Shown piece by piece: positions 6,540 through 50,165 of a stretch of 50,222 nt of DNA (its first letter is position 1; every line of letters begins with the position of its first letter). This stretch comes from a virus, in IMG/VR virus record IMGVR_UViG_3300031658_000011, positions 1 to 50,222 of that record, one strand, 5' to 3'. The notes under the pieces were generated by a model. The model saw only the letters and a list, made by a program, of their open reading frames with translations, made no database searches and was not told where the DNA came from. Made by a program: the position numbers and the translations under genes.

Positions 6540-6797
6540 CTACTGAGACCGGAAAACATCCGGGCGCAGTTGATGCTCAGTGACTTCGTTGTCGAGCGCA
6601 TTGCACACTTGCACGACTCGTTGAGCCGGGACTGCGCCCTTAACCATCCACGACTGAACGGCTTGGGGTGTGACGTCGCAACGTCTCGCCAACTCTGACA
6701 GGTTCCCGTCGAGGATGCGTAAGAGTGCGGCTTGAAGGGCGCGGTCGGCTGATTTGAGTTGGGCTTTGGTCATACTGTGGGATCGAGAACTGGACAT
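6540..6797 (-). CDS. Cro/YdaS-like helix-turn-helix regulator
   Basis: The protein carries a compact HTH: G-N-L-S-E-L-A-R-R-C-D-V-T-P-Q-A-V-Q-S-W-M, followed by V-P-A-Q-R-V-V-Q-V-C-N-A-L and a short tail ending R-P-D-V-F-R. This is the pattern of YdaS/Cro-type phage regulators. Three starts are possible: 6839 (almost at the putative transcription start), 6797 (AAGG 11 bases upstream) and 6773 (no ribosome binding site). I prefer 6797, giving 85 residues; the domain itself is the same in all. It is divergent from the XRE repressor and heads the primase operon, so it is likely the lytic-side partner of the switch. Confidence 0.8.
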   Translation of the reverse strand: MSSSRSHSMTKAQLKSADRALQAALLRILDGNLSELARRCDVTPQAVQSWMVKGAVPAQRVVQVCNALDNEVTEHQLRPDVFRSQ

Positions 6798-6840
6798 ATA
6801 TAAGGTGGCCTTAGACAAGTAAGAGGTGAAAACACACATA

Positions 6841-6888: not shown

Positions 6889-7085
6889 CAACACAACCGC
6901 GCTTCACAACTTTACCCCGAGTAATGCGTGTTGCTTACAACCTACGCTTGCATTTAACCTCGGTGTGACGTAGAGTGACGGTTCGCAGACTTTCTCTGCG
7001 AAACTTTGCCAAGCCGATGGGCAAAGTACACTCTGCGCAAATGGCGACACGGATTAAACGCCCCCCGCACACGAAGGTTATGACC

Positions 7086-7949
7086 ATGACCAAAACTGTC
7101 CACAGCGGCTTTGCCGCGAGAGCTTCTAACGAAGCCAAAAATCTAGGCTTAACACAGACCGAAATTTCTAAAGAGTGCGGGGTTACGCCCCAGAGCGTTC
7201 AACGCTGGTTTAGTGGCGACTCGCTTCCGAGGCCACACCACCTCCCAGTGCTTGCTAAAATGTTGCAGTGTAGCGTTGGCTTTCTCATCAGCGACACGCC
7301 AGAACTAGCTTCAGGGGGGTTCTCGATCCCGACGCCCCTGCGCGAAGAAAGCCCGCTCAAAGAAATTAACGCGCTACGAAGGTCTACAGAAGAACTAAGT
7401 ACCATAGCTTCTAAACACCAGATTGCACTGGCCGCCGCGTCAGAGGTGTGCGGGCGGACTTTGCTCGAGCAGTTAGGCTGGCATGGGTATTTTCAGGCTG
7501 GGGATATTCAGCCGACAGGTTCTCCGTATTTAGTGTCACGCGACGGCCATGAATATTCAGTCGAGTTGCGCATGCACCCGCCGTCAGTCGCCGATACTGC
7601 TAGGATGTCAAGAGCAACAACCGCACAGAACTCACGCGGGATTACTGCATACGCTTGGTACTCAGAGCGCGTTAAATCTCTACGTTTTTTTATAGCGCCC
7701 GACCGGCTTTTCCTTACGAGACAAGGGGTTGAAATATTAAAAATGGTAGGCGTACTTCAAAGTAAAATTCGGGCTGGGATACTTGACCTTAGCGTAGGCG
7801 ACGCTTCGATGTCCGAAGGCGAATACTTGGATGTCTTGTTCGGTGAACAAGACAGGGTTTATCAAAAGGTGTTTGAGTGGGTCGATCTTTTTGAGCTGGA
7901 AGAGGCCGTCGAGGCCACAAAGCATTGGGATTTGATCCGCAGTAAATAG
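7086..7949 (+). CDS. XRE-family repressor (CI-like) with unrecognised C-terminal domain
   Basis: I chose the ATG at 7086 because AAGG lies 8 bases upstream and the HTH domain begins shortly after; the frame stays open upstream to 6975. Residues about 8-75 form an XRE HTH: A-K-N-L-G-L-T-Q-T-E-I-S-K-E-C-G-V-T-P-Q-S-V-Q-R-W-F, then a helix ending in a hydrophobic C-S-V-G-F-L-I. The following about 200 residues include a coiled stretch and then a domain with H-E-Y-S-V-E-L and S-L-R-F-F-I-A-P-D strands. I cannot find the Ser/Lys dyad or the Ala-Gly cleavage site of S24 (LexA/CI) repressors. Position, divergence from the Cro-like gene and the terminator behind it make it the lysogeny repressor. Confidence 0.75.
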   Translation: MTKTVHSGFAARASNEAKNLGLTQTEISKECGVTPQSVQRWFSGDSLPRPHHLPVLAKMLQCSVGFLISDTPELASGGFSIPTPLREESPLKEINALRRSTEELSTIASKHQIALAAASEVCGRTLLEQLGWHGYFQAGDIQPTGSPYLVSRDGHEYSVELRMHPPSVADTARMSRATTAQNSRGITAYAWYSERVKSLRFFIAPDRLFLTRQGVEILKMVGVLQSKIRAGILDLSVGDASMSEGEYLDVLFGEQDRVYQKVFEWVDLFELEEAVEATKHWDLIRSK

Positions 7950-8007: not shown

Positions 8008-8092
8008 TTACACTTTCTAGTTGACAAGTTACACTTACAAGTCTAATATCAACTCAGTTGTAACGCAGTACCGAAAAAAACCTATTACACTT
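8008..8092 (+). promoter_or_regulatory. Promoter of the replication operon with three TTACACTT operators
   Basis: TTGACA (8021-8026), 17 bases, TAATAT (8044-8049) is a near-consensus sigma-70 promoter reading right. TTACACTT, the complement of AAGTGTAA, occurs at 8008-8015, at 8029-8036 inside the spacer, and at 8085-8092 downstream. The first two are 21 bp apart, i.e. on the same face of the helix. Confidence 0.8.
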
Positions 8093-14924: not shown

Positions 14925-15200
14925 ATGGGTGAGATTATAGGCATTGGGGACGTCGGTGTTGCACTTCAGAGAAGAGAAACTCTCGAGACGGCCCAAGACG
15001 TAGCGAAGCGAGTGACTGAAGGCGAGTGGAAAAACGCAGTGGGAATGTTGGCTATCGTAATAACTGAGGATAGTTTGATCTCTTTTACGACCAGCAAAAG
15101 CGTAGACGAGGCGACGGCGATAACGCTTGCCACTGTCGTCACACACGCGCTTTGCCCTTTATTACTATCAGACGAACTGGACTTTGAAGATGACTCCTGA
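14925..15200 (+). CDS. Hypothetical protein, 91 aa
   Basis: ATG directly follows the helicase stop (TAGATG). A GGGG at 14914-14917 may act as ribosome binding site. The product has a mixed alpha/beta pattern with two hydrophobic segments (A-V-G-M-L-A-I-V-I and A-I-T-L-A-T-V-V) and an acidic C-terminus. It overlaps the phosphoesterase gene by 11 bp. I do not recognise it. Confidence 0.6.
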   Translation: MGEIIGIGDVGVALQRRETLETAQDVAKRVTEGEWKNAVGMLAIVITEDSLISFTTSKSVDEATAITLATVVTHALCPLLLSDELDFEDDS

Positions 15201-16362
15201 ATTAGCAAATGTACTACTTAAATATACGAATACGGAGGCGCAGCGAGAGTTGATTAAGATGCGCCGCGACGGTGCGACATGGCCCGAGGTTGCCACTAAG
15301 CTCAAAATCGACGGCGGCAACGGTCGGCAAACCATTCGCATCTTGAAAGAGCGAGCGGCGAAGCAAGGGTACGCGCCTGAGTACGACATGAACCATCCTG
15401 TGCCAGAGGGATTTGTCGTGAACAAAGTGTCAACTCTCTATGATGCAGAGGGCAATGTAAAATCGCAGTGGGTGAAGTCTCAGGGCGACAGGGAGAGGCA
15501 GTTGCAGATGCTGCTGGATACGATTCAAAGTGGTGGGAGTGGATATAAGAAGTATAAGCCCACCGCCCAACCGAAGAAATTAGACGCCGACCTTCTCTGC
15601 CTGTTAACCATAACAGACTTCCACTTAGGCATGTACGCATGGGCGGCCGAAGCGGGTGACGACTGGGACTCAGAAATAGCACGTTCGGTTTTCTTAGACT
15701 CGGTCGCGGCCATGATCGCGGCCGCACCCCCTGCGGGGACAGCCGTCTTAAATCAGCTAGGAGATTTTTTACATTTTGACGGGCTGCTCGCAGTGACCCC
15801 CACGGGGGGCAACATCCTAGACGCTGACACCAGATACGGAAAGCTGGTGGATATGTCCATGTCGGTAATGGCCGAGGCCATTCGGATGATGCTTAAAAAG
15901 TTCGGTGAAGTTCGCGTCATTCAAGCGGAAGGGAACCACGACATGGCTGGGTCGATATGGCTTCGCAAGCATCTCAAGCATGTATTCGCAGACGAGCCGC
16001 GTGTGTCAGTTGATGATAGTGAGTTCCCCTACTACGCATATCTGCACGGGAAAACAATGCTTGGATTTCACCACGGACATAAGGTCAAACTCGCGCAAAT
16101 GTTCAAGCTGTTTTCTTCTGAACCTAGATTCCGTGGTATGTGGGGCCAAGCTGACCACACCTACATACACTCCGGGCATCTGCACCATGAGCGCGTTGTC
16201 GAAAATGGCGGCGCGATTGCAGAGCAGCACCCAACCCTTTCGAGTAGGGATGCTTACGCCGCGCGGGGTGGCTGGATCAGCATGCGGGGAGCCAAGATGA
16301 TTACTTACGACAAGACAGACGGTGAAGTTCACCGAATCACAGTCCGACCACGGACAATATAA
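15190..16362 (+). CDS. Metallophosphoesterase
   Basis: ATG 15190 was chosen since the upstream part of the frame is only the shadow of the previous gene. The first about 120 residues form a helical DNA-binding-like region (T-W-P-E-V-A-T-K-L-K). The calcineurin-like motifs follow: T-I-T-D-F-H-L-G (Asp143, His145), L-G-D-F-L-H-F-D, A-E-G-N-H-D, H-H-G-H and S-G-H-L-H-H-E. All metal ligands are present. It is 390 aa long, typical of a phage family often mislabelled as oxidoreductase. With nuclease, helicase and polymerase upstream it probably cleaves DNA or nucleotides during replication or recombination. Confidence 0.85.
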   Translation: MTPELANVLLKYTNTEAQRELIKMRRDGATWPEVATKLKIDGGNGRQTIRILKERAAKQGYAPEYDMNHPVPEGFVVNKVSTLYDAEGNVKSQWVKSQGDRERQLQMLLDTIQSGGSGYKKYKPTAQPKKLDADLLCLLTITDFHLGMYAWAAEAGDDWDSEIARSVFLDSVAAMIAAAPPAGTAVLNQLGDFLHFDGLLAVTPTGGNILDADTRYGKLVDMSMSVMAEAIRMMLKKFGEVRVIQAEGNHDMAGSIWLRKHLKHVFADEPRVSVDDSEFPYYAYLHGKTMLGFHHGHKVKLAQMFKLFSSEPRFRGMWGQADHTYIHSGHLHHERVVENGGAIAEQHPTLSSRDAYAARGGWISMRGAKMITYDKTDGEVHRITVRPRTI

Positions 16363-16372
16363 GGGGGAGGTT

Positions 16373-16561
16373 ATGGATAATTATGGGACGCTAAAACTGA
16401 TAGAGGTACTTAGCCATATAGCCGTTTCTCTGCGCGCTATATCTAACGCAGTTGAGACCGCGATACGAGAAGACGTCGAAGACGTGGACGAGGACGAGGG
16501 CGAGGACGAGGAAGACGACGACGGCTCGCCGTCCTCTCATTTCGGAGGGGGTACTATATGA
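16373..16561 (+). CDS. Small acidic protein, 62 aa
   Basis: GGGGGAGG just 2-3 bases before the ATG fixes the start. The N-terminal half is a hydrophobic helix (L-K-L-I-E-V-L-S-H-I-A-V-S-L); the C-terminal half is an uninterrupted acidic stretch of Asp and Glu, ended by a Gly-rich tip. Highly acidic small phage proteins can mimic DNA and block host DNA-binding proteins; here that is speculation. It overlaps the next gene by 4 bp. Confidence 0.6.
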   Translation: MDNYGTLKLIEVLSHIAVSLRAISNAVETAIREDVEDVDEDEGEDEEDDDGSPSSHFGGGTI

Positions 16562-16854
16562 GTCCGTACCGGAGCAGATTGGAAGTGGCTAAGAAAGGCT
16601 ACATAGCAACAGAGGGAGTTGGTGAGTGTGGTGTACGCCTGTGGTGGTGCGTCGCACAAGTCGGACATAGCTATACAAACATGAGTGTCGAAAACTTGCG
16701 GGTGCTATTCCCCGCATTAAAGAAGCAGGCTACTGACGGGAGAGACTGGGCCTACGTCATAGGCCACGCCGCTCAGTTTTTAATCGTGCCTGTGATTGTT
16801 TGCCAGCTCGTCGTAGTATTTAAACATCGACAGGAGACTTGGTATGGAGGCTAA
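16558..16854 (+). CDS. Hypothetical protein with possible membrane helix, 98 aa
   Basis: The ATG overlaps the preceding stop (ATGA). The middle is Cys/Trp-rich, and the C-terminal region has a long hydrophobic stretch (F-L-I-V-P-V-I-V-C-Q-L-V-V-V-F) before a short basic tail, which could span a membrane once. It overlaps the excisionase-like gene by 11 bp. I do not recognise it. Confidence 0.55.
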   Translation: MSPYRSRLEVAKKGYIATEGVGECGVRLWWCVAQVGHSYTNMSVENLRVLFPALKKQATDGRDWAYVIGHAAQFLIVPVIVCQLVVVFKHRQETWYGG

Positions 16855-17077
16855 AGAAAAGTTGATAGTCACTATTACTGACCTGTCAACACTAATAGAC
16901 AAATCCCCTCGCTCAATCGAACACGCGATAGCGCGCGGTTCAGACTGGCTACCGCCGGGGTTCCGAATGGGTAAGAGATGGTGTTGGTTGAAGAAAGATA
17001 TTGAAGCGCATCTTATCAAACTTGCCGACCGCTCAGTTAAACCGTCACGAGTTGGGAGGCCACGTCGCCATGTTTAG
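16844..17077 (+). CDS. Excisionase-like winged-HTH protein, 77 aa
   Basis: AGGAG at 16831-16835 precedes the ATG by 8 bases. The product has the layout of a small AlpA/Xis-type DNA-binding protein: an HTH (I-T-D-L-S-T-L-I-D-K-S-P-R-S-I-E-H-A-I-A-R-G), a wing G-F-R-M-G-K-R-W-C-W-L-K-K-D-I-E-A-H, and a basic tail. Its 3' end overlaps that of the integrase by 4 bp in a tail-to-tail arrangement. Directionality of integration is its most likely role, since it is the last gene of the lytic replication operon. Confidence 0.7.
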   Translation: MEAKEKLIVTITDLSTLIDKSPRSIEHAIARGSDWLPPGFRMGKRWCWLKKDIEAHLIKLADRSVKPSRVGRPRRHV

Positions 17078-18054
17078 CCCAGTTTCAGGGCTATGTTAGA
17101 TGGACTCAAGTGCGTATAGGCCAGCAGCATTTTCAGGTCTTTGTGACCTGTGATTCTTTGGACCTCTACTATTGACAAGTTATGCACTTCAAAGAAACGG
17201 CTTGTGGCTTCGTGCCGTAAGTCGTGTAAGGTCAAACCTTCGATCCCTGCCCGCTTGCATGCCTCTGAAAAATGGTAGGTGGCTATGCTGGGCAAGTGAT
17301 CCCAGACCTTACCCGTCTTGCTTAATATTTCTACTTCTCTCAGCACTCGAATTGCCCGACGGGACAAAGGCACGTCCCTCTTGTCCCCATTTTTGGTCAC
17401 GCTCAAGTGCGCAAAACGCTCTCTATAATTTATTTGCGCAAACTCAAGGCTGCATAACTCTCCCCTTCTCATCGCGGTGTATATAGCCAGACGCACAACA
17501 GGTCGGAGAGAAGGTCTACCGACTACAATCTCCCGCATCAACCGCCGATACTCGCCGTATTGCAGGCGTCTACTCCTGCTATTCGGCACTTTCGGTTTAT
17601 CAACCCCAACCGTCGGGTTAACCAAGTTCTTATAGCCCCATCGGGTAATTGCTTTTGTATAGAGATGGCTGATAACGGCTAGTTTCTTTCGGACTGTCCC
17701 CGGCGAGTTTAACGACTCGTCGGCAAACGCTTGGATGTGGTCGGACGTGATATCGTCTAGCTTATAACCAGCCAACTCGTGCCGCTGCCAGATACGGATG
17801 TTGCACATCTCGCTGGCTACCCCTCTTTTCTTACTTGTAACCTCTTCACCGTAACGCTTTAACGCTTCACCCAGTCTTGGTATGCTTACCCCCAAGGAAC
17901 GGCCTAAGTATTTATCCGCGAGAACGTCATGCTCAAGACCACTGGCGAACGCCTCCGCGTCTCGGCGTGTGGCAAATGTTCTGCTCATACTAGGAGCGTT
18001 CTTGCGCCTGATCTGTGCGCGAAACTTCTTGCCGACCTTGGTTATCGTAGCCAC
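17074..18054 (-). CDS. int: Tyrosine integrase
   Basis: The 326-aa protein starts with GTG behind GGGAGAAG. It has an N-terminal AP2-like arm-binding domain (K-F-R-A-Q-I-R-R-K), a SAM-like core-binding domain (about 60-150) and a catalytic domain with A-M-R-R-G-E-L (first Arg), K-N-G-D-K-R-D-V-P-L (Lys), H-D-L-R-H-E-A-T-S-R (HxxR), T-G-H-K-D (His) and the nucleophile Tyr in L-L-A-Y-T-H-L. All catalytic residues are present, so it should be active. It integrates and, with Xis, excises the phage genome. The adjoining noncoding stretch at 18.06-18.3 kb is the likely attP location. Confidence 0.93.
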   Translation of the reverse strand: MATITKVGKKFRAQIRRKNAPSMSRTFATRRDAEAFASGLEHDVLADKYLGRSLGVSIPRLGEALKRYGEEVTSKKRGVASEMCNIRIWQRHELAGYKLDDITSDHIQAFADESLNSPGTVRKKLAVISHLYTKAITRWGYKNLVNPTVGVDKPKVPNSRSRRLQYGEYRRLMREIVVGRPSLRPVVRLAIYTAMRRGELCSLEFAQINYRERFAHLSVTKNGDKRDVPLSRRAIRVLREVEILSKTGKVWDHLPSIATYHFSEACKRAGIEGLTLHDLRHEATSRFFEVHNLSIVEVQRITGHKDLKMLLAYTHLSPSNIALKLG

Positions 18055-18453: not shown

Positions 18454-21400
18454 TTAAAACTGATAGGGTTGTGGCCCTTTCCCGTCTTGCTGCTGACCAC
18501 CTTCGTTCATCGCGGCTCGGATCGCCTTCGCCGTTACTGAGTTGCGGATATTGTCGCTGGTCACTTGCATAGTGGGGTTCTTTACGCTGAACCTTCTAAT
18601 GGCCGCTATCGTTTCTCCCGACAGTCCGCCCCCACCATTTATATCTTTCCTCGCCTGTTTCATTAGCGCGTCCCTGCGATCGCCAAGCTTTCTAAGCTTC
18701 GTCATTTCGATCCGGTTCCTAGTGTACTGCAACTGAAGTTCAGTAGGCGAAAAACCCAGAGTCTGCAACGCCAGCTCCCACCCGTTGAACTCATCAGCTT
18801 CTATAAGAGGTAGGTTTTCTGAGTTCGTTGCACCTTCTAGGTTGTATCTAACCGACTTACTGACGTCCCGAACAAACTTAGGCACTACTTTCTCAGCCCC
18901 CTTCCAGTATTCACCCTCTTTAAGCAACTCCTTCGCGTCCATAAACATCCCTAAGACGCCACCAAGAACCGGACCAGCCATTTGCAAACCGAAGTGGGCT
19001 AACTGCTCTCGGCCTTCCTTGCCGTTATCTTGTGGCTGAATAAAGAGACGTAGAATATCTGGCGCGACTCTCAAGCCAACGCTTCCCCCTACCAACACGT
19101 CAGTAGGACCGTCAACGACAATCTGCCCGAGAAGGCTGGCTAACTTTTCGTCCTTGACGGCGTCATTTATCATCAGGTAAACCCCTTCACGCAGCTCGCC
19201 CTCAAAGTCTTTCGGCTCATCCTCGTCCCCAAATAGGTCTTCAAGAAGGTTCCAAATTGTCTTGACTACCGAGTAAACAAAGACGCCTTGGATTCCAGAG
19301 AACAGCATGGATATAGCCACCGACGCGAGGGATCGATTCACCATCTCCCGCTTAACCACCGGATCGGTTTCATCCGATAAGTTAACCGCCACATAGGCGT
19401 CCCGCAAAACACGGAACGACATATTGAGCGCGTACTGTTTGTACTGCCCGATCACTTTTGCGGCTGGGAGTCTGAGAATCCGAGGTCGGCCCGCGTTGCT
19501 ATAGTCGAAGTGTACGTCGAGAGTCACGTTGTATGCGTAGTCCAAGGCCACGTTGTAGTTCTGACCTCCTGCTATTGCCATGCGGAAGGCAACCATCGCA
19601 GTGACTTCTCGGTTAAACACTTCCGCGTTATGGAAGCTTGCCGAAATTCTGTCCACTACGACTCGGCCCATCATTGATCGGTTCATCCCCTCGTCGCTGA
19701 TGCCCGCGAGGTCGTGCGCACGAGTCTTCTCGAAAAGGCTACGCCTGACCATCTCTTGATAAAACTCCAGCTCGACGCCTTTGAGGCTGTCGCTCCAATG
19801 TACCTTCATGTCGTTCTCGAGGAACACAGTCTTGTCTTTAGCTCTCACGGCTATGTTTGCCGCGATGACACCTGAAAACTCGTTTGTCGCCTTGGCGAAT
19901 GCGGCAGCGGTTTTAGAGTAGCCATACCTCGCCCCTATGACGGGTATCCCTACCATCGGAGTCTGGAAAGTGTTTATCAAAGCGGCGGCAGGAGAAACCC
20001 CCAACTGGTAAATAAACCCGAGGCTGGTCAAAGTTGAGGCCCACGGTTTGTTGGTCGGGTTCATCGCCCAGTCAACCCCGTCCTCTATCTCACGGAGAAG
20101 GCGACCAGCAAAAGCAGAGTCTTTCAGAGAATTGGACTCTTCTTTAGCTCGCACCAGCAAACCTCGAATCACATCACCGTGCCGCAACTTTGTAATGTGG
20201 TGAGCGTGGTGCAACGCGATAGAAGAATAGGCCCGCATGGCGTCCTCATCCCAGCCTTTTACCTTGCCCCTGTGAATGGACTGCTTGCGGATCGACATCT
20301 CTGGCAGAGTCTGTAGGTAGAGTTGCCACACCGCATCGGCCAGCTCAAATTGCTCCTTGCGACCTATGCCATCAGCGTTCTGGATAAGCCCCGTTACGGC
20401 GCTGGCGTACTCAGGATCAACTTCTTGGAACGAGCTTTGCTCTTCGTCTTTAACGCCCTTCTTAGAAATCCAAGTCGGATGTTTTTTCTCCATGTCGTTC
20501 TGATACTGAAGTGCTTGCTCGTTAGTCTCAAATATTCGGAACTCTTCGGTCACTTCTTTACCGTCCACCACCGATTTCAGTACCACAAAGTGTTCACCGA
20601 ATCGGGAGAGAGGAAAGTACGGCCCACGCACTTCGTTGCTTTCAAACGCTATCCGTAACTTGTCAGCCATAGCAGTACGGACTGTCTCGGACATCTCAGC
20701 TCGTTCGATGCGGTCGGCCAGCTCTTTGTGCATGGCACTGCGCTGCCGTCCGTATTCATCCCTGACTCTGTTGTACAGGTCTTTTGCTTCCTTAGATAAC
20801 GCAGAGTACCGAGAGTCGAGTCCCGCCTGCGCGTTCTTGCGCGTCACCTCGTCAGCTCTCTTCTGTTCTAGGGCTTTAAGAAGCCCGCTGTAACGCAGCC
20901 TCTGATCGGCAGTCCCAGCGGAGCGCATCTTAGTAGAGAGCCGCGTCTTCTCTTTGAAGTATTCTTTCTCGGTGAGTATCGACTTGTATGGCGCAGACGG
21001 GTCGTAGCCCACCAGCGTCGTGTCGTGCATTAAAGTGTGTAGTTTGCTCGCCATCTTCCTGTTCTTGCGCGCCCAGCGATGCCATATATTAAGCACCTCG
21101 CCAGCGTCAGACAGTATCTGGTTACGGTCTGCGTCCATCTGCTCCGCCTGTCGGATCACTTTAGCCGCAGTGGGCATTTCCTCGGGGATTATTTCTGCGA
21201 GCGCACGTCGAGGCAGAAGCGACAACAGGGATGGCCGTTGAGAGATCATCCGCTGGAATCGGTTTTGCGTGTTTGCTGTAGTGGGTAAACGCCCGCCTCT
21301 GCCCTCGGAGTCAATAGACCCTAAGAGATCGGCCAAGCCTTCTAGCCCTGACTGCTCCGTGTCGTTGCGACGGGAGCCGAGTATGTCAGAGTCTAGCTGT

Positions 21401-24400
21401 CCTGCTCTCCCTCGGGCTGAAGCTCGACGGGTAGGTTTGACATCTCCTCGGGATCGGTTAGAAGCTCCTGTATCTCTTCCTCCGACCTGTCTGGGTACGC
21501 CATCGTCATATACATCGCGGCTGTAAGTGCCATTTGCCTTCCGATCATTACGTCCAGAATCGGATCGGGATGCCCATCCGGGTACATCTCCTTTAGTTTT
21601 TGCGAGTCCATAAGCTTCTTTCCTCACTTTAGCGAGGGTCATTTTACCCTCGGCAAATTGTTTCCACAAGGCGTTTATTTTTAGGAGGTTGACTGATTCC
21701 GTGTCCTTAAACTTCTTGGGATAAATGACGCGAATCTCCTCCCATGTAATGCTTTGCAGCTCACGCGGTAGCAGCCCTAACTCGGCAGCCGCTTCTCGAT
21801 AGGCGTCGGCTACGATGCCGTATATTCCGCCTATGCCATTTGATTTTGAACTCCCTGCGCCTGCACGTTCTACCCCTTCTGGTATGCCACGCAAGCCTTT
21901 TACGGGAGTACCGCCAAAGACGTGAGCGACCTCATAACTCTTTGCCGACAAGGGCTTGAACACCGCCGCCGCCATTGCGTGGGTGTCAATAGTCACCTCA
22001 CCCAGATTACTGTTGGGTGCGATAATGTTGTTGTAAAAGTTTCTGACCTTGTGCGCGCCGCCCAGACTCATCGACACCGATTCCAGTGACCCGTCTTGCA
22101 ACACCCTCATCGCCTTGGCGATCTCAGTGAACGAACCCCACGCAACAGACGAGGGTGTAACACCGTCGTCGTTCATCGCAAGCCCAATGATTTCGCCTGT
22201 TGGCTTCATCATGCGGTACTGGCGAGAGTGCTTCGCTTCGTCGTACATGCGTACCCAGATCGAGACAGCAAGGTTGCCATCACGTTCGGAGACGAGAGAC
22301 CTCACGTCAGACAGCTTGGCGTTTTTAATCAAGCCCCATATCTCACGGTATTCTCGTGTCTGGGCTACCTTATCGGATTCACCCTTCCGTGGGTTTTTGC
22401 TGACTATGATCAGCTTGCCTTTGTCGTCCCGCATCACGACGCGGTTAAACGCTTTGTCCATGTCCTTGTCTGCGGTCGCGTCTTGGCGGTAGGTATGGAT
22501 GTCCATGATCCGCTCGGCCAGAGACATATTCATAAACCAGTCTTTTTGTGGTGACAAGTTAGCAATAACAGCAGCCACCTGTCTCGACTCTAACCCATAC
22601 CGAGCAGACCAGATGTCTACGTTCTTGCGCGCGCCGTCGTACCACTTGCGGGCAGTCTCTCTAAGGTTGGGGTCCATCTGATTGTGCAGCCAGATCAGGT
22701 TCTTCACCATGAACTGCTTGAACTCGTTGATGGTCTCTTCCGCAGTCAGGTCTGACCGAGAAGGGGTAAAGAAGTCGTAGCCCTCAATAGTTTTCTTTTG
22801 TGTTTTAGCGACTTTTTCAACGGACAGTATACGGTCAACGCCTATCGAATATTCTTCGGGCGCACCTGTAATATAGTAGGGTACTTTGTTTTTCATCCCT
22901 GACGGCAACGACGTCTGGACGCGATCCTCACCACCCTTAACCTTGTTAGGTCGCACAGCCTGATAAGGTCTGCCTGTCTTACCAATGGGTGCTTTGCGCG
23001 ACGCCAGTATGTCGCTACTGTCTGAGTTGTCAGGGTCAAAGGCTGCATAAGCAGATCGGATGTTCGACTCTCTGCCGGGGAAAGTTACGACGTGTACGGT
23101 GTCGCTGTCCACCCCGTCCATACTGCCGCCATAGCGTCGGGCCGTTCCGAACTTAGTATTTACCGTGTAGTCAAGAACGCCATCGAAACCAAGATTCTTT
23201 AACACCTGCGAGGATATTTCACCCGGAGAAATCATCTCACCTGAATCGTTCTCCAATGCCCCCAGTGACCGAATCGCGGAGTCTATTTCTGTTACGACGA
23301 GGGCGTTATCGGTGATGTCATCCTGTAGCGCCTCCATTACCTCGCCAATAGAATCCGGGCTGATGTACAGGTCTGTGTCCCTGAGAGCATCTTGTATCTT
23401 TGCGTACAGAGATTCGTCCGAGTCAGCCGACAGCTCATCGGCGTACTCAACCAAGGCGTCGTCAAAGGCGTCCTCGTCTTCGTAGTCGTCCCGGTTCAAT
23501 TCATCTCGGGCATCCTCGGTAAAGTCTTTACCATAGATAAAACTTTGGCTGCGCCCGTCGGGGTTGCGGCCGGGGCCACTATCGACCACTGCGTAGTTCC
23601 CAGTCTTTATTTTCAGCGGGTACACGACGCCTTTCTTCGCTGGGCCTAACAGTCTGTCGGAAGCGATTTTCCAATGAGCCGCGTCCATATCCCCAGAGTA
23701 TTCCTCCAAGGGGATGCTGGCCTGCTCAAGAATTTGATCCCTTTCAAAGTCATTATAATCCATGACCTGTGCTATGTTCTCGGCTTCTAGCTCTATTCGA
23801 GCCGTCAAGTCAGGGCCAATTCCTGCGTAGTTTTCATTAACATCCTCGATGCTAGTGCTGGCGTAGGAAGCCTTGCCCCAATCTCCGTCCGGGCGGGCGC
23901 GATCACCGTCAAACGCCACGATGTCAAACGTGCTGCCAGAGAAAACTTCCATGTCGAAGCCTTGCTCCTCGGCTCGGGCGTCTCTCGCTTCTTTTGTCAT
24001 GCCCTCTTTGCCAAACTTCGCGGTGGCCGCAGTCCACTTCTCAGTGCCGCGACTCTCTTGGCCTAACGCTGTACGCGACGCCAGTATGTCGCTACTGTCA
24101 AAACTATTACCGTCAAACTCCGCATTAACAGATCGAATGTTAGCTGAATCAAAGACGGCTATGTTTGTGTATTTCTTACTGCGGGCGTCCCAGTCCGTTT
24201 CAAAATCCCAGTAGGAGTCAAACCCAGCGGCTTTAATGTCTTCCGCGCCACCCTCTAAAGTGCTGTAGTCTCTCGACGCAGCGGGGGTAAGGCCGAGTAT
24301 CTTTCTATGGGAGGGCTTGTTTATATCAAAAGTGTTTTCAACTTTTATGTAGACTGGGTAAATGGTCGGAGCGTCGTCAGGCGAAGTTGCCCACCCCCCA

Positions 24401-27231
24401 AACACCTCTGCAAAACTCTCGGCAGTCTTGCTGTCTGTTGTAAGGTGAGCCGCTACGTTTGGTGTATTACCCCTAAACCCTTTCTTGTTTATCGTCGTTG
24501 TTTTTGTCCCGTGGTAGTAAACGGTGTCCGTGTCGAAACCCATCTCTGTGGCACGGGCTGTGCGGACGGCGCGCGAGCCTAGTATGTCGCTACCGTCTGA
24601 GCTGTCAGCATTAGCAGCTTTATCTTTTCTAGCTTGGTTGCGCTCTCTGGCTCCCTTGTTGTAACTTTCTATGCCTAGAGTGGTTGAAAAGTCGGCAGCG
24701 TCCAACTGCGATTTGTTGAGGACATCAGTAATCCCTAGAATGGCCGCGTCAAGCCAAGTTGGGGTATTGCCACTCTTTGAGCCGAACAAACTTATTTTGA
24801 CCCAGTCTTTAAAACGCTGTAACAAAGTCTTTCCGTTGTAGTCGATGTTGTACAGCTCAAGCTGAAAAGCTGGGTCAGTAGTCGCGCGGATAAAAAATTC
24901 ATCTATACCGCCGTCGGCTCCCGCAATTTGCATGGGGACGCTTAGATTCTCTATGCCCCCCGCCTCGGCTGCTAGTTTCGCAACTTCTTTACGGAACTCA
25001 CGGTGCAAGTTTCGGAACTGGGCAATAGCTTCCTCCGCTTGAGGTCTAGTCAGTCCTGTGCGGTCGTATGTCGAACCCTTCGCAGCAGCAAATAACGTCG
25101 AGTACCGAGCATTGATTACTAGGTGCATCGCCTCGTGCAGCAACGTATCAACGTCATTACCCTGCTCATTTCCTTCATAGATTGTAAGGAGTCCTTTCTG
25201 TAGGGTATTACCATTCGCAAACGACGGGAATCTGTATGAGCCGCCTTTAATTTCGTTGTAGCCCCCTAACTCAACATCGTAGCTAGAGGGGTCCGGTAAC
25301 AACGACATGATTTCGTCTATGAGAAACTTAACTTCTTGCGGCATGCTTTCTTTCGCAGACTCAAGGGCCGCAACAAAATCGTTATCTCGAATAGCCTGTA
25401 AGGTCTTTTCACTTAGGGGTTGGCGGATAGCGTCAGAGATGGGCCTATACTTGCCTCTCTCCAGTGTAGGCTCGGGCCGAGACAGCTCCTCGAGGGTACG
25501 ACGTGTGACAGTACCATCCCCTACGACGGCTGCGGTTACAGCCAGCGACATAATGTTCCGCATAAATCTACGGCGGGTTAAGCCGCGCTCGTCTTCGTCT
25601 ATCTCGGCGTCCGATCTTACCCCGTCTAATTCCTGTTGGAATTTAGCGTCGGAGGCGGCTTGATCTGCCAAATACTTTTTCTCTAGTTCTTTTAAATCTT
25701 CAACCCTTCTCAGTCTCTCTCCGTATTCTTTCGTCCCAAACTTAGGAGTTTTTTCCTCTGCTTCTTGCAACATTTCTCGTACACTTTGCAGATACGTCCT
25801 TGTACTTTTTTCCTCTTTTTTCTGCCTCTCTAAGATTTCATTTCGTTTGTCTTCGACGGTACGAGAGGGGGCTTTTTCTTTCTGTCTCCGTTTCTTATTA
25901 GCTTTCTCGTCAGCTTTAGCTTTCTTATCGGCCTGTCGCTTGTCGTCTTTGGCTTTCTTATCGGCCTGTCGCTCATCAGCTTTGGCTTTTTTCTCGGCCT
26001 GTCGCTCGGCGTCTCTTGCCTCTTTTGCCGCAGCAGCTTCTTGGGCCTTTTTCCCTTTAGCTCTTAGGTCTGCTTCTTTGGCTGTTCTTTTGGCATCACG
26101 CTCTTCTACTTCCTTATCTTCGGCCGCTTGACGGTCTTCTACTTCCTTATCTTCAGCCGCTTGACGGGCTTCTACTTCCTTATCTTCAGCCGCCTGACGG
26201 TCTTCTGCTCTCGTATCTTCGGCGGCTTGTCGTGTTTCAGCCATCGCGCTGTTAGCGGTTTCACGGATAGCCAGCTCGGCAAGCGACGCAAACTCTCTCA
26301 TTGACAAGTTATCAGCAGTGACTTTTATTCGTAACAGCTTACGAAGAGTTTGCTGCACAGCCAGCCGTGCGTCTCCAGCCCACTTTGCGATAGACCCTTT
26401 CTCTGCCTTAGACTCGACGATCGCTTGGATAGCATACGCCATCCACTCGCTTTCTTGTTTAGCTAAGTCCCCGGTGCTATCACCCGAATTAACAAACAAC
26501 TCATAAGCGTCTTGTAAAACCTTTTTCTCTCTGGGGTTTCCAAACTGGCGCAGTAAGTTAAGGCGTCGGTATAGAGCAGACCGCTGATCTCCCATCAGCA
26601 TATCAAAACGGGCGCTGCCAGACTCTTCGGCGTAGCCTTCTGCCGCGTGGAGCATTTCGTGGTAGCCCACTGCCACCGCGCCTATGTCAGCCTCTACCCT
26701 GTCTGAGAATATAACGGCCTGTCCTGTTGACTTCTTATACGCACCGCGCATGCCGTTCTTTTCATCAAACGCCATCGTCCAGCCGTCCCCTAGCGCATCT
26801 CGCTGAGTGCTGTGTACGACACGGAGCTTTCCTGAGTCTAGCGACTCTGACATTGCGGTGTTTTTGCGCAGGACTGCAAGCACCCGAGCGTTCTTTTCTT
26901 CGGCTTCGGCCTCTGTAAAGTTGCTACCCAACGAATCAAGGGAAGGAGCCTCGGAGTCAGTCTCAGGATCAGACTCTCTGCTGCCCAGTACGTCCCCTGC
27001 TGCTGATGCCTTGGCAACGGCAAGGGCCATCACATTAGCTTGTTTTAATCTAAGAGCAGCCAGCGTTTCTTCGACGGCTATTATGTTCGCCTCGCCTAAA
27101 GGCATGGACAGCGTACCTGTGTCTGTCTTGCCCGCAGAGTTACGGATACTTTTCACTTTCTTGCGGAGGGCTGCCTTCTCTTCCTTGGATATTGTATCGC
27201 CAGCTTCTTTGAGGCAGTTGGACAAAGTCAT
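18454..27231 (-). CDS. Giant polyvalent virion protein, 2925 aa
   Basis: Several domains are visible. A first zincin-like HExxH is at His191 (Y-H-E-M-L-H), followed by a TolA-like Lys/Ala/Glu coiled coil (about 330-510), a twin-Arg hydrophobic segment (about 551-572) and a second HExxH at His699. Two ADP-ribosyltransferase-like domains of the ART-PolyVal kind follow (about 888-1047, Y-Y-H-G-T; and about 1054-1405, F-S-G-S), each ending I-R-S-x-x-A-x-F-D. Next come a domain with L-S-P-Q-K-D-W and T-I-D-T-H-A (about 1440-1890) and a long C-terminal region like the large polyvalent protein-associated domains. D-[IV]-L-x-S-R occurs at 80, 882, 1048, 1407 and 1949, between domains. Such proteins are thought to be packaged and injected with phage DNA to act on the host. 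The lysozyme gene is just upstream. Confidence 0.85.
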   Translation of the reverse strand: MTLSNCLKEAGDTISKEEKAALRKKVKSIRNSAGKTDTGTLSMPLGEANIIAVEETLAALRLKQANVMALAVAKASAAGDVLGSRESDPETDSEAPSLDSLGSNFTEAEAEEKNARVLAVLRKNTAMSESLDSGKLRVVHSTQRDALGDGWTMAFDEKNGMRGAYKKSTGQAVIFSDRVEADIGAVAVGYHEMLHAAEGYAEESGSARFDMLMGDQRSALYRRLNLLRQFGNPREKKVLQDAYELFVNSGDSTGDLAKQESEWMAYAIQAIVESKAEKGSIAKWAGDARLAVQQTLRKLLRIKVTADNLSMREFASLAELAIRETANSAMAETRQAAEDTRAEDRQAAEDKEVEARQAAEDKEVEDRQAAEDKEVEERDAKRTAKEADLRAKGKKAQEAAAAKEARDAERQAEKKAKADERQADKKAKDDKRQADKKAKADEKANKKRRQKEKAPSRTVEDKRNEILERQKKEEKSTRTYLQSVREMLQEAEEKTPKFGTKEYGERLRRVEDLKELEKKYLADQAASDAKFQQELDGVRSDAEIDEDERGLTRRRFMRNIMSLAVTAAVVGDGTVTRRTLEELSRPEPTLERGKYRPISDAIRQPLSEKTLQAIRDNDFVAALESAKESMPQEVKFLIDEIMSLLPDPSSYDVELGGYNEIKGGSYRFPSFANGNTLQKGLLTIYEGNEQGNDVDTLLHEAMHLVINARYSTLFAAAKGSTYDRTGLTRPQAEEAIAQFRNLHREFRKEVAKLAAEAGGIENLSVPMQIAGADGGIDEFFIRATTDPAFQLELYNIDYNGKTLLQRFKDWVKISLFGSKSGNTPTWLDAAILGITDVLNKSQLDAADFSTTLGIESYNKGARERNQARKDKAANADSSDGSDILGSRAVRTARATEMGFDTDTVYYHGTKTTTINKKGFRGNTPNVAAHLTTDSKTAESFAEVFGGWATSPDDAPTIYPVYIKVENTFDINKPSHRKILGLTPAASRDYSTLEGGAEDIKAAGFDSYWDFETDWDARSKKYTNIAVFDSANIRSVNAEFDGNSFDSSDILASRTALGQESRGTEKWTAATAKFGKEGMTKEARDARAEEQGFDMEVFSGSTFDIVAFDGDRARPDGDWGKASYASTSIEDVNENYAGIGPDLTARIELEAENIAQVMDYNDFERDQILEQASIPLEEYSGDMDAAHWKIASDRLLGPAKKGVVYPLKIKTGNYAVVDSGPGRNPDGRSQSFIYGKDFTEDARDELNRDDYEDEDAFDDALVEYADELSADSDESLYAKIQDALRDTDLYISPDSIGEVMEALQDDITDNALVVTEIDSAIRSLGALENDSGEMISPGEISSQVLKNLGFDGVLDYTVNTKFGTARRYGGSMDGVDSDTVHVVTFPGRESNIRSAYAAFDPDNSDSSDILASRKAPIGKTGRPYQAVRPNKVKGGEDRVQTSLPSGMKNKVPYYITGAPEEYSIGVDRILSVEKVAKTQKKTIEGYDFFTPSRSDLTAEETINEFKQFMVKNLIWLHNQMDPNLRETARKWYDGARKNVDIWSARYGLESRQVAAVIANLSPQKDWFMNMSLAERIMDIHTYRQDATADKDMDKAFNRVVMRDDKGKLIIVSKNPRKGESDKVAQTREYREIWGLIKNAKLSDVRSLVSERDGNLAVSIWVRMYDEAKHSRQYRMMKPTGEIIGLAMNDDGVTPSSVAWGSFTEIAKAMRVLQDGSLESVSMSLGGAHKVRNFYNNIIAPNSNLGEVTIDTHAMAAAVFKPLSAKSYEVAHVFGGTPVKGLRGIPEGVERAGAGSSKSNGIGGIYGIVADAYREAAAELGLLPRELQSITWEEIRVIYPKKFKDTESVNLLKINALWKQFAEGKMTLAKVRKEAYGLAKTKGDVPGWASRSDSGRNDRKANGTYSRDVYDDGVPRQVGGRDTGASNRSRGDVKPTRRASARGRAGQLDSDILGSRRNDTEQSGLEGLADLLGSIDSEGRGGRLPTTANTQNRFQRMISQRPSLLSLLPRRALAEIIPEEMPTAAKVIRQAEQMDADRNQILSDAGEVLNIWHRWARKNRKMASKLHTLMHDTTLVGYDPSAPYKSILTEKEYFKEKTRLSTKMRSAGTADQRLRYSGLLKALEQKRADEVTRKNAQAGLDSRYSALSKEAKDLYNRVRDEYGRQRSAMHKELADRIERAEMSETVRTAMADKLRIAFESNEVRGPYFPLSRFGEHFVVLKSVVDGKEVTEEFRIFETNEQALQYQNDMEKKHPTWISKKGVKDEEQSSFQEVDPEYASAVTGLIQNADGIGRKEQFELADAVWQLYLQTLPEMSIRKQSIHRGKVKGWDEDAMRAYSSIALHHAHHITKLRHGDVIRGLLVRAKEESNSLKDSAFAGRLLREIEDGVDWAMNPTNKPWASTLTSLGFIYQLGVSPAAALINTFQTPMVGIPVIGARYGYSKTAAAFAKATNEFSGVIAANIAVRAKDKTVFLENDMKVHWSDSLKGVELEFYQEMVRRSLFEKTRAHDLAGISDEGMNRSMMGRVVVDRISASFHNAEVFNREVTAMVAFRMAIAGGQNYNVALDYAYNVTLDVHFDYSNAGRPRILRLPAAKVIGQYKQYALNMSFRVLRDAYVAVNLSDETDPVVKREMVNRSLASVAISMLFSGIQGVFVYSVVKTIWNLLEDLFGDEDEPKDFEGELREGVYLMINDAVKDEKLASLLGQIVVDGPTDVLVGGSVGLRVAPDILRLFIQPQDNGKEGREQLAHFGLQMAGPVLGGVLGMFMDAKELLKEGEYWKGAEKVVPKFVRDVSKSVRYNLEGATNSENLPLIEADEFNGWELALQTLGFSPTELQLQYTRNRIEMTKLRKLGDRRDALMKQARKDINGGGGLSGETIAAIRRFSVKNPTMQVTSDNIRNSVTAKAIRAAMNEGGQQQDGKGPQPYQF
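21393..21611 (-). CDS. Gene within a gene: 72-aa acidic protein inside the giant gene
   Basis: This frame lies on the same strand as the giant gene but in another phase. It has an ATG preceded by GAGGAAAGAAG, a good ribosome binding site. The product looks like a real folded protein: M-D-S-Q-K-L-K-E-M-Y-P-D-G, a Met/Ala-rich amphipathic helix (M-I-G-R-Q-M-A-L-T-A-A-M-Y-M-T-M-A-Y), S-E-E-E-I-Q-E-L-L and an acidic tail. The giant protein in the same DNA has only an unstructured Gly/Ser/Arg/Asp linker (about residues 1874-1946), just before its D1949-I-L-G-S-R motif, which leaves it free to tolerate overprinting. Function unknown. Confidence 0.65.
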   Translation of the reverse strand: MDSQKLKEMYPDGHPDPILDVMIGRQMALTAAMYMTMAYPDRSEEEIQELLTDPEEMSNLPVELQPEGEQDS

Positions 27232-39023: not shown

Positions 39024-40507
39024 TAGCTAATCCTCTCTAATGCTTTCTTCAGTTCGTCAATCTGAACTTGCTGCTCTTTGATCGCCTCGATAAGAAGGCC
39101 GATCATGTTGCCGTAAGCCACTGTTTTAATTCCGTCAGAGGGATTTGTAGCGACAACTTCGGGTAGCACTTTCTCAACTTCTTGGGCGATTACACCCGCT
39201 TGTCGAGTGTCTGGCATTACGCCCGTTTCAGCGTCAGGTATAAAGTCGTTGCGGTCAAAGGTGACACCACGCAATGCCTTGACCTTTGCTATCGCGTCAG
39301 GGATGAGTTCAATGTTGTCTTTAAGTCTAATGTCTGAGTACGCGGTAATGTTGCCCGTTGCTGTATAGTTTCCTGCCATATCCCAAGTGTGTTTTATAGC
39401 ACCCGCAGAAAACCCGCCTAGCTCCATTTTATTGGCAGTAGATAAACCAAAGTTTACGCCATACGCGTTTATGCGGTGAAACGACATAGCGGCAACCGTT
39501 GTGGCACTACCTCTAAAAGATATAGAGCCAGTGTCATTCGCTCCCGTTATTGTTGTTGTGGCGCAATTTCTTCCCACAATAAGGCCCGTCATCGTGCCGC
39601 CAGTTCTAGCCAGTGCCGCATTAGCCTTAGTTTGCGCGGTCGCTGCGTTAGTGACGCCTGTGTTGGCCGTACTTTGCGCGGTCGCTGCGGCAATAACGGC
39701 TGAGTTTGCCGAGGTCGCCGCAGCCGCTGCGTTAGTGACACCTAAGTCGGCTCTGGTCTGCGCGGTCGCTGCGTTAGTGACACCTAAGTCGGCTCTGGTC
39801 TGCGCAGTCTGGGCGTTAGTGACACCTAAGTCGGCTCTGGTCTGCGCAGTCTGGGCGTTAGTGACACCTAAGTCGGCTCTGGTCTGCGCGGTGACTATGT
39901 CCGCCTCTGTTTGAGCAGATGTGGTAAAGCTGCCCACAATCTGCGCGCTGAATGTCTTAGTGCCTGCTATTGTCTGGTCGGCTGTTTTCAGCACATTGTT
40001 TGTCGTAGCGGCAGAGTTACTGTTTGCAGCCGCCGTGGCGCTGGCAGCCGCTGCGGTAGCACTGGCGGCAGACGCGGTAGCACTGGTGGCAGACGCGGTA
40101 GCACTGCTAACAGAATCGTTTTTAGCGTTTACGGATGTTAGGCCCGCAGTATATGACGTTACTGAGTGGCCTAGCGACGCTGTTGCTTCTGTAGCACTGG
40201 TGACCGCACTGGCAGCAGCCGCAGTAGCACTGGCAGCAGCCGCTGCTACAGCCGTGTCAATATCCGATAGGCTGTATAAGTCTGCGTCACCAGAGCTATT
40301 TATGTATAGCAGCTTGTTATTAACAGACTGGGATGGGATTTTGTGGTTGCCAGAAAAAGTATCAGGAAACTGTATCCGCGTAGTAAAAGTCGTCTGTACC
40401 GCCTCAAAGCCTGTCTCAATAAGATCAAGTTGAGCGTTGACGCCCGCAGAAGCGACCAGCGTTCCTGCGATAAAAGGATTGTCGTGTTCGTAGTAAGTGT
40501 TTGCCAT
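39023..40507 (-). CDS. Tail fibre with C-terminal S74 intramolecular chaperone, 494 aa
   Basis: The N-terminal about 90 residues are a virion-attachment domain. The shaft follows, made of Ala/Thr/Ser repeats and four copies of a 14-residue unit containing T-R-A-D-L-G-V-T-N-A. The C-terminus is a peptidase S74 (endosialidase-type) chaperone: Y-S-D-I-R-L-K-D-N-I, G-V-I-A-Q-E-V-E-K-V-L-P-E-V and a final coiled coil. In this family the chaperone trimerises the fibre and cuts itself off at a Ser in the S-D-I-R-L-K-x-N motif, which is intact here. Confidence 0.85.
   Translation of the reverse strand: MANTYYEHDNPFIAGTLVASAGVNAQLDLIETGFEAVQTTFTTRIQFPDTFSGNHKIPSQSVNNKLLYINSSGDADLYSLSDIDTAVAAAAASATAAAASAVTSATEATASLGHSVTSYTAGLTSVNAKNDSVSSATASATSATASAASATAAAASATAAANSNSAATTNNVLKTADQTIAGTKTFSAQIVGSFTTSAQTEADIVTAQTRADLGVTNAQTAQTRADLGVTNAQTAQTRADLGVTNAATAQTRADLGVTNAAAAATSANSAVIAAATAQSTANTGVTNAATAQTKANAALARTGGTMTGLIVGRNCATTTITGANDTGSISFRGSATTVAAMSFHRINAYGVNFGLSTANKMELGGFSAGAIKHTWDMAGNYTATGNITAYSDIRLKDNIELIPDAIAKVKALRGVTFDRNDFIPDAETGVMPDTRQAGVIAQEVEKVLPEVVATNPSDGIKTVAYGNMIGLLIEAIKEQQVQIDELKKALERIS
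39729..39896. repeat. Four 42-bp tandem repeats in tail fibre gene
   Basis: Units start at 39729, 39771, 39813 and 39855 and share a core of more than 30 identical bases, differing only in the last positions. They encode the 14-residue shaft repeat. Confidence 0.85.
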
Positions 40508-47862: not shown

Positions 47863-49386
47863 TTAGTATCCTGTTCTCATATCGGCAACCTGTAGTGGTG
47901 CGTAAGTGTGTCCGCTGTTTTTCTCCCGCGCTATCGCGGTCAACACCCTCAGACACAGATACTGCAACGCATCGTGGGGGTGGGAAAATTTGTTCTTGTC
48001 GGGCTTCTCTCGGTATCGGGCTTCACCTGAAACTTGGACCCGCGCGTATTGATACCCTGCAATAAAGCCTGCTTTCAAAATTGAACAGTGCGCACTCAGT
48101 AAAAACGCGGGTTCGCCTTTAGGGGCGAGGCGCATTAGAAAGTGGCGTACCGATTCCAACCTTGGCTCGATGGCGTTGGTCGAGGCAGGGACAACCGCCA
48201 TGCCTGTACTCCTCATTACTTGGAAGCAACTGACCTCGTCGGTGTCTCCCGCCGCATTGCCAGAGGGGTCTCCGACATATATGCGCTCGTGTCTGGCATA
48301 CTTCTCTGCGATCAACGGCATCATGGACGTCGCTATAAAATCGGTTAGCCCCATTCTCTTTGCTACTAACTCGTCAAGAATACGGAGCTGCCCGTCAATG
48401 TACTGACCAAAAATGGCGCTGGGGGTGAGTCCGAAGTCCAATCCGATGTAGATCGGCTTGTCTTTGATCGGCCACAGGTTGGTACTAGCAACGTGTATCC
48501 GCTCGTTGAACGTCTCGCCATATACTGGCATCCCGTCGCGGACAGTGGCGTACTCGTTCAGCACATAGGCGCGTATCCAGTTCGGGTCTTTGCCGCCTAT
48601 GGCGTTAAAATAGTAGTCGTACCCTCCGGGGAGGTTCTGTATGTTCTCTGCGGCGGGGTTAGGCTCAAAGCCACTACTCTCGCACCGTGCTTTGGTGATA
48701 CCTGTAACCTCTGGGTCCATCAACAGGGTGTCGCCTTTCCTATACCGCAACAATGCGGCAGGCTGTTGATAGAACTTCCACCCTTCCGGTGGGTTTTGCT
48801 CAAGCTCTGCGTACCAGTGGTCTTCCGCAGGGCTGTTAGTGTCCATGATGACCCCTGACCAGCTTGGGCCGCCCTCTCGCACGGACGGATATCGCCCTAC
48901 CCGAGAGGTAATAGTGTCTGCAACTGCCTTGTCTAGCTCTTTTGCTTCGTTAAGGAACGCGCCTGTCAGTTCAAGCGACAGTAACTTGCCCAAGTCCTTG
49001 GGTTTATCTAACGCGATGAACACAAACTCGGCCATGACTACCGTTTTGTCCGGTAGGGGCAGGGTCAGTCGTGCGGTAATCGGTGATTCGTTCAGTTTGA
49101 CTGGGCAGATCGAGTCTGGCAGCCAGTCTTGAAAGGTTTTTAGCGTTGTACTTTTCAACTCTGGGTAAGTCGCGCGGACCATACCCATTCTGGTCTTGCG
49201 TAGCCCTGCCGCGTTGGGCTTTTGGGCCAGTGCCTTCTCCATCGCAAGGTCGATCATCGCCCCTACGCTCTTACCGGACCCGATAGGGCCGCGCATACCA
49301 CGGACAAACGACTCTCGGTCCGTGTGAAACCCTTTAAATGTCTTTGATGCGGTGTAATCAAGGGTAACGGGTGGCGGTGCGCTCAA
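47863..49386 (-). CDS. terL: Terminase large subunit
   Basis: The start is TTG at 49386, overlapping the small subunit stop (TTGA), with AAGGGGA 7 bases upstream; the next in-frame ATG lies right before the Walker A and would cut into the domain. The 507-aa protein has Walker A G33-P-I-G-S-G-K-S40, an ATPase core with G-V-I-M-D-T-N-S-P and F-L-N-E-A-K-E-L-D, and the RNase H-like nuclease beginning I-Y-I-G-L-D-F-G-L-T-P with a later Y-V-G-D-P-S-G. It packages DNA into the procapsid and cuts the concatemer. Confidence 0.92.
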   Translation of the reverse strand: MSAPPPVTLDYTASKTFKGFHTDRESFVRGMRGPIGSGKSVGAMIDLAMEKALAQKPNAAGLRKTRMGMVRATYPELKSTTLKTFQDWLPDSICPVKLNESPITARLTLPLPDKTVVMAEFVFIALDKPKDLGKLLSLELTGAFLNEAKELDKAVADTITSRVGRYPSVREGGPSWSGVIMDTNSPAEDHWYAELEQNPPEGWKFYQQPAALLRYRKGDTLLMDPEVTGITKARCESSGFEPNPAAENIQNLPGGYDYYFNAIGGKDPNWIRAYVLNEYATVRDGMPVYGETFNERIHVASTNLWPIKDKPIYIGLDFGLTPSAIFGQYIDGQLRILDELVAKRMGLTDFIATSMMPLIAEKYARHERIYVGDPSGNAAGDTDEVSCFQVMRSTGMAVVPASTNAIEPRLESVRHFLMRLAPKGEPAFLLSAHCSILKAGFIAGYQYARVQVSGEARYREKPDKNKFSHPHDALQYLCLRVLTAIAREKNSGHTYAPLQVADMRTGY

Positions 49387-50021
49387 TCAGAGTCCCCTTC
49401 GTCGTTTTCATCCGCTTCTAAGGACGTTAATCCCTGCGTGGCTACAAGTAGCTCGGGCTGCTCGGTGCTTGTGTCGTCCCCCATTACGAGGTTTAGGCTG
49501 ACATTTAGCCCTGATGTACCTTCGGCGGCATACAACTGGAAGTGTTTCGACAGTTGGTCTGTAAATCGGGCCGCTGCGCCCAAGTCCGTCTCTTTAACGG
49601 CCTGTGAGGTAAAGGTTTGGGTCTCTTTGTCATACCCACTTTTGATGATTGGGGCTTCACCCATTGACATCTCTAGCAAGTTCACGATTTTAGCGAGCAG
49701 TGAGTCTTTGTTAAGGCCCAGTTTTTGCATTCGCGCGGTCAACAGGTGGTTTAGGGCCGCCTGAACCGTAGGTTGGGCCACCCACGCCGCTGCTTTCTTC
49801 GGCTTTATCGAACATATGTTCGCCGCAGCAATCACATCGAGGGTGGGGTGTGACAGTAACGCCTCAAAAAACACGCGCTGGGTTGTAGTGAACCGAGCGT
49901 CAGCGTTTTGAAACATCGCCTCTTCCATAACACGCAAATCGTCTAGCGTTACAGGGACGCGGCGTGTTGCAGCAGGGCTTTTAGCGTGTGTCGGGTTGGG
50001 GGACATAAGTATGTTCGCCAT
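49383..50021 (-). CDS. terS: Terminase small subunit
   Basis: The 212-aa protein is the first gene of the late operon, with GGAG 5 bases before its ATG. It has an HTH-like region (P-T-L-D-V-I-A-A-A-N-I-C-S-I-K-P-K-K-A-A-A-W) followed by helices for oligomerisation and an acidic C-terminal tail for contact with the large subunit. It recognises phage DNA to start packaging. The direct coupling to TerL supports the call. Confidence 0.85.
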   Translation of the reverse strand: MANILMSPNPTHAKSPAATRRVPVTLDDLRVMEEAMFQNADARFTTTQRVFFEALLSHPTLDVIAAANICSIKPKKAAAWVAQPTVQAALNHLLTARMQKLGLNKDSLLAKIVNLLEMSMGEAPIIKSGYDKETQTFTSQAVKETDLGAAARFTDQLSKHFQLYAAEGTSGLNVSLNLVMGDDTSTEQPELLVATQGLTSLEADENDEGDSD

Positions 50022-50090
50022 TAAATCTCCAGACTAGGGGCCAGAGTACACGCACTGGTTGCGTTACACAACACTTTACATACTATATTT

Positions 50091-50120
50091 AGTATATAAG
50101 TGTAATTTTATTGTTTGCAA
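50091..50120 (-). promoter_or_regulatory. Late operon promoter with AAGTGTAA in the spacer
   Basis: On the reverse strand TTGCAA (50115-50120), 18 bases, TATACT (50091-50096) is a good sigma-70-like promoter aimed at the terminase genes. AAGTGTAA (50098-50105) lies in its spacer, as in the other two control regions. A GTTACACA (50063-50070) lies downstream of the start. Confidence 0.7.
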
Positions 50121-50137
50121 TGTTTTATGAGCTTCGT

Positions 50138-50165
50138 TTGTCGTATTGTAAGTGTAGATTGTAAG
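50138..50165 (+). promoter_or_regulatory. Candidate rightward promoter out of the window
   Basis: TTGTCG (50138-50143), 16 bases, TGTAAG (50160-50165) could start a forward transcript. AAGTGTAG (50150-50157), one mismatch to the operator word, is in the spacer. It would mirror the divergent arrangement at 6.85 kb. Confidence 0.45.

Follow-up and report, generated by a model that had tools for sequence, protein, structure and literature searches.

In the standard picture of a temperate phage, the immunity repressor leaves the structural genes alone, and their silence follows from the absence of an early-made regulator. The C1 repressor of phage P1 has 22 short asymmetric operators scattered along the genome, and the late genes of this phage are run via the activator Lpa, the gene of which is itself controlled by C1 (PMC8546580). 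The repressor of mycobacteriophage L5 (cluster A) uses many asymmetric sites genome-wide, some of them located in promoters, together with stoperators (PMC9283540). In SPbeta, the master repressor MrpR acts on repeated SPBRE elements in about ten prophage promoter regions (PMC10516654). A literature search of partial coverage returned nothing to the point on direct action of a repressor at late or terminase promoters.

We analysed the linear virus record IMGVR_UViG_3300031658_000011 over its entire length of 50,222 bp (hereafter the window; Table 1). Its predicted genes mark it as a temperate phage that follows the genome plan of BPP-1. The gene order terS (terminase small subunit), primase, switch, replication operon and integrase known from BPP-1 and BcepC6B was also found in the window, the agreement being one of plan only. 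In BPP-1 as in the window, a late operon led by terS is followed by primase, cro, a divergent repressor gene, an operon for exonuclease, SSB, polymerase and helicase, and the integrase gene; BcepC6B has the same order. Both terminase genes stand at the head of the leftward late operon of the window. Relatives of the terminase in bacterial genomes were at most 46% identical, and the nearest annotated phage among them was Pmp11, which has a lambda-like early region. The late gene cluster ends with a gene for a polyvalent protein of 2925 amino acids (18454-27231) which is DarB-like and contains LPD39 and a possible ADP-ribosyltransferase domain. Within the tail fibre gene, a 42-bp unit is repeated in 6.2 copies (39633-39892).

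Table 1. Coordinates of genes, promoters, operators and repeats (positions refer to the window unless another record is named).
Feature	Position	Strand	Remark
Primase gene	3899-6472		
Cro-like regulator gene, YdaS/P22 Cro type	6540..6839	-	61% identical in G001
Operators AAGTGTAA, cro/repressor intergenic region	6841-6848, 6867-6874	+	
HTH_3 repressor gene, in-frame ATG at 7080 and 7086	7080..7949	+	Pfam HTH_3, phage repressor PHROGs; 37% identical in G001
Operators AAGTGTAA, repressor/right-operon intergenic region	8008-8015, 8029-8036, 8085-8092	-	
Right early promoter TTGACA-17-TAATAT, operator in spacer	8021..8049	+	
Rightward early operon (exonuclease, single-strand annealing protein, DNA polymerase, helicase)	8115-17077		
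Integrase gene	17074-18054		
Terminase large subunit gene	47863..49386	-	PHROG 2; 89% identical in G001
terS, terminase small subunit, first late gene	49383..50021	-	PHROG 51; 67% identical in G001
Half-site GTGTAA downstream of putative late promoter	50064..50069	-	sequence
Putative late promoter TTGCAA-18-TATACT for terS	50091..50120	-	9/12 match
Operator AAGTGTAA in putative late (terS) promoter spacer	50098..50105	+	exact match
Operator-like AAGTGTAG	50150..50157	+	exact match
Repeat arrays upstream of terS	L024 5180-5490 (G001 44.33-44.64 kb); BPP-1 26607-26712; BcepC6B 1-101		

For comparison we used the diverged relative IMGVR_UViG_3300009512_002372 (55,620 bp; G001), which is collinear with the window. 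The switch of the window shows the layout characteristic of the lambda/P22 type, in which the repressor and Cro genes diverge from a common operator region; its operators are not confined to the early switch, and a third cluster lies before terS in both the window and G001. The HTH_3 domain of the repressor resembles that of the 434 repressor and is followed by a long helix, as predicted, whereas the C-terminal part had no match among Pfam families; Pfam at E 0.01 gave no self-cleaving domain of the LexA-like (S24) kind at the C terminus. Confidence of the structure model was limited to the HTH. The recognition helix of the repressor (VTPQSVQRWF) is identical in the window and G001, the overall identity of the two proteins being 37%, and the corresponding helices of repressor (VTPQSVQRW) and Cro-like protein (VTPQAVQSW) are nearly the same.

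The initial annotation had placed two copies of the switch operator in front of the terminase genes, and both were found again, as AAGTGTAA and AAGTGTAG within 200 bp upstream of terS. The latter is bordered by TTGTAA on both sides (50146-50151 and 50159-50164) and has TTGTAAGTGTA in common with the right-operon operator at 8029. The motif AAGTGTAR occurs in seven copies in the window, compared to 2.8 in shuffled sequences, and all seven lie in just three intergenic regions, namely between cro and the repressor gene, between the repressor gene and the right operon, and upstream of terS. The 201 bp upstream of terS contain two AAGTGTAR (0.04 expected, P 0.0005) and four [GT]TGTAA half-sites (0.77 expected, P 0.005) by dinucleotide-preserving shuffles. 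As longer motifs obtained by expectation maximisation were symmetric and poorly resolved, they were set aside, and an 11-bp matrix trained solely on switch sequences from the window and G001 was used instead. This matrix ranked position 50097 second in the entire window, with a local P of 0.003 for the best match upstream of terS. Stretches of 120 bp with at least three [GT]TGTAA were found only at 6.8, 8.0 and 50.05 kb of the window including an 869-bp left extension, and such a density was reached in just 0.09% of composition-matched stretches from other terminase-bearing loci. The 8-mer with one mismatch permitted was not enriched window-wide (36 compared to 33 expected), and the signal thus consists of exact and clustered sites. 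An inverted repeat, TTACATACTA/TAGTATATAA, spans the -10 region of the putative late promoter (50076-50099) and is possibly bound by a further regulator.

The same distribution was seen in G001, where 120-bp stretches with at least three [GT]TGTAA occur only at 31.5 and 33.0 kb, the two switch regions, and at 45.0 kb, upstream of terS. Exact AAGTGTAA is present in four copies in these 55.6 kb, of which three belong to the switch and the fourth precedes the start of terS by 25-32 bp. Local shuffling gave P values of 0.003-0.005 in the window and 0.002-0.015 in G001. Recurrence of the switch operator at the terminase promoter, as originally proposed, is therefore beyond chance in shuffles and is repeated in a diverged relative. 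Alignment of the regions upstream of terS placed one TTACAA and one GTGTA at homologous positions, and the other sites were shifted between the phages; presence of selected binding sites in the absence of strict positional conservation is presumably common. The half-sites were retained in L005, a 95.8%-identical variant. The comparison of the cluster upstream of terS covers two independent species, the window and G001.

The sole sigma-70-like consensus match upstream of terS is TTGCAA-18-TATACT (9/12, compared to 0.5 matches per shuffle), with the hexamers at 50120-50115 and 50096-50091 and TTACACTT inside the 18-nt spacer. In a promoter weight matrix it scored 10.6, close to the right early promoter (10.8) and above the 95% shuffle level (9.5). 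The right early promoter of G001, TTGACA-18-TATGAT, has the same layout as that of the window, and an operator within the spacer is common to the putative late promoter and the right early promoters of both phages. TTGCAA-18-TATACT was not conserved in the alignment with G001, and the weight matrix returned no sigma-70 promoter candidate above background upstream of terS of G001. The reverse promoter of the initial annotation is thus in place and plausible as a late promoter in the window, but it is not shared with G001. A weak pair, TTGTRY-17-TAMTCT, kept its position beside the terS start codon in both phages with a low score, and in G001 an operator covers its second hexamer. The forward promoter that had been suggested at 50138-50165 (TTGTCG-16-TGTAAG) had to be discarded, as it scored 4.4 with a background mean of 7.0 and the consensus scan gave no forward match.

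Since recurrence of the operator exceeds chance and is repeated in G001, direct control of the late genes is the best reading of these results, and we consider it likely that the late operon is held off by repressor bound before terS, in parallel to the early operons. The repressor, and probably the Cro-like protein as well, would recognise the short half-site AAGTGTAA and, more loosely, GTGTAA or TTGTAA, clustered between cro and the repressor gene, in front of the rightward early operon and in front of the terminase/late operon. RNA polymerase would be blocked in the lysogen by repressor that occupies the late promoter spacer and the sites beside it, so that the late operon would be switched off directly together with the early operons. 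We infer that the repressor binds the sites upstream of terS and thereby represses the late promoter, which we likewise place by inference at 50120-50091; the earlier claim of direct silencing is accordingly kept in a form in which the repressor, the Cro-like protein or both may act. This reading is weakened by the missing conservation of the late promoter in G001, by the number of independent species, which is two, and by the different operator positions. Late transcription may in addition depend on an activator or on readthrough, given that the operators of G001 come with no clear sigma-70 promoter upstream of terS. The early operon encodes a 95-amino-acid HTH protein similar to sigma-70 region 4 (13253-13540; 54% in G001), which is a candidate late activator.

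Three further explanations were weighed, in the order timing control by the Cro-like protein, a block of elongation, and chance. The late cluster might mainly serve the Cro-like protein, which would be bound during lytic growth and would delay or tune late transcription, repression in the lysogen being secondary. Its recognition helix, which is nearly that of the repressor, and its better conservation (61% against 37%) speak for this explanation, which we nevertheless regard as unlikely: the sequence does not separate the sites of the two proteins, and a repressor with the same half-site would also fill the sites in the lysogen. Somewhat less probable is that the cluster is no promoter operator but a stoperator-like block of elongation on upstream transcripts, for instance those of the leftward primase operon, which points at terS on the circular map. 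The L5 repressor acts in this manner (PMC9283540), and G001 has operators yet lacks a good sigma-70 promoter before terS; the site of the window, however, falls inside a good promoter match, the intervening AAA/VWA genes are oppositely oriented, and the clusters lie in large regulatory regions rather than in short gaps between co-directional genes. A resemblance by chance or by AT-rich intergenic composition, to which the missing window-wide enrichment of the one-mismatch 8-mer would point, is very improbable in view of the dinucleotide-preserving shuffles of the same stretch, the composition-matched windows from other phage loci and the independent recurrence before terS in G001.

Direct repression of the late operon had been proposed as part of the control of at least four operons. 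The window alone gives three regulated regions and, with the forward promoter unsupported, does not bear out this number. In G001, the genes on the opposite strand before terS encode an AAA-like protein followed by a DUF2201 metallopeptidase/VWA protein and are the counterparts of the first genes of the window (2-790 and 787-1296). This gene pair (2-1296 in the window, 39.4-44.2 kb in G001) is unusual for a temperate phage. The divergent operon of G001 starts about 860 bp from terS, and going by this arrangement its start in the window would not be at 50138-50165. Four [GT]TGTA[AG] half-sites lie ahead of it (44.26-44.33 kb) with weaker statistics (matrix P 0.12, half-site count P 0.014), which suggests the divergent AAA/VWA operon as a fourth regulated region in G001 only; as the head of this operon is missing from the window, a fourth regulated operon is no more than possible there. 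An ORF starting at 50204 was rejected as the divergent gene, as G001 does not conserve its ATG and as it is out of frame with the ORF at position 2 when the contig ends are simply joined.

The distance of more than 40 kb between the switch and the late promoter holds on the linear contig and is an artefact of its linearity, as cro and terS of G001 are 12 kb apart via the other side of the map. In the prophage the two would presumably also be about 12 kb apart, if attP adjoins the integrase gene as the gene order suggests. Two contigs (L026 and L027) lengthen the left end of the window by about 870 bp towards the gap between cro and terS; a scan of viral contigs yielded no DNA across the right end of the window, and a search with a divergent-operon protein of G001 found no contig of the window's species bridging the gap. 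Going by G001, about 5 kb would be absent from the window. Upstream of terS, G001, BPP-1 and BcepC6B have arrays of direct and inverted repeats of 10-15 bp (CGTTCTTGATTT, TTTGCCTCGTTT, ACGATAGGGACGATA), alike in layout and different in sequence, which resemble a replication origin that would serve the primase close by.

Cro-like proteins with a related PQAVQxW region are encoded on seven further contigs. The regions upstream of their cro genes carry TTGTAR/CTTGTAR half-sites, and the half-site is thereby linked to this family of regulators. Among five of these records that were read, four showed TTGTAR clusters at the cro switch in two places 0.7-1.2 kb apart, and in one of the four a minimal third cluster was located within a long ORF. 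The fifth record, read to 40 of its 44 kb, contained no TTGTAR cluster. Terminase_6N had no match in these relatives, and the comparison there covers regions other than that of terS. BPP-1 likewise has operators in both regions flanking its repressor gene; its cI, however, is UmuD-like and its operators are palindromic (ATGCGYNNACGCAT). Five such operators with at most one mismatch surround the BPP-1 switch, and none was found in the terS-primase interval even at up to three mismatches. BcepC6B had no 8-mer common to its switch and the region upstream of terS. As the operators of BPP-1 and of the four phages with related Cro proteins are essentially limited to the surroundings of the switch, a switch with two operator regions is, by this comparison, the ordinary case, and the third cluster at the late operon apparently sets apart the lineage that comprises the window and G001. 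The sister switches make this lineage a natural comparison for how late genes gain direct repressor control. More doubtful is a wider reading in which a lineage with the BPP-1 plan would have placed its late genes under the immunity repressor itself; one repressor would then hold the early, terminase/late and AAA/VWA operons in parallel, and silence of the late genes in the prophage would not need the absence of a separate late regulator.

If the operator in the terminase promoter functions as proposed, it provides a second lock on the late genes of a temperate phage, and loss of the repressor would be a direct trigger of late transcription. The best reading is a dispersed-operator regulon of the kind known from P1 C1, L5 and SPbeta which would include the terminase promoter of a BPP-1-like phage, with far fewer sites than in P1 or L5: beyond the switch, the repressor motif is found in one region of the window (terS) and in one or two of G001. 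The likeness to P1 C1 consists in a single repressor whose short asymmetric operators are spread across the genome, whereas the operator sequences differ and the window has an operator at the terminase promoter itself where P1 acts via Lpa. L5 has more than 20 sites of 13 bp, read by a monomer via two domains and in many cases located in short intergenic gaps, unlike the three clusters of the window, which were found only in large regulatory regions. With SPbeta MrpR the window shares a repressor motif repeated across promoter regions, but MrpR has a recombinase fold, whereas the repressor of the window is an HTH_3 protein.
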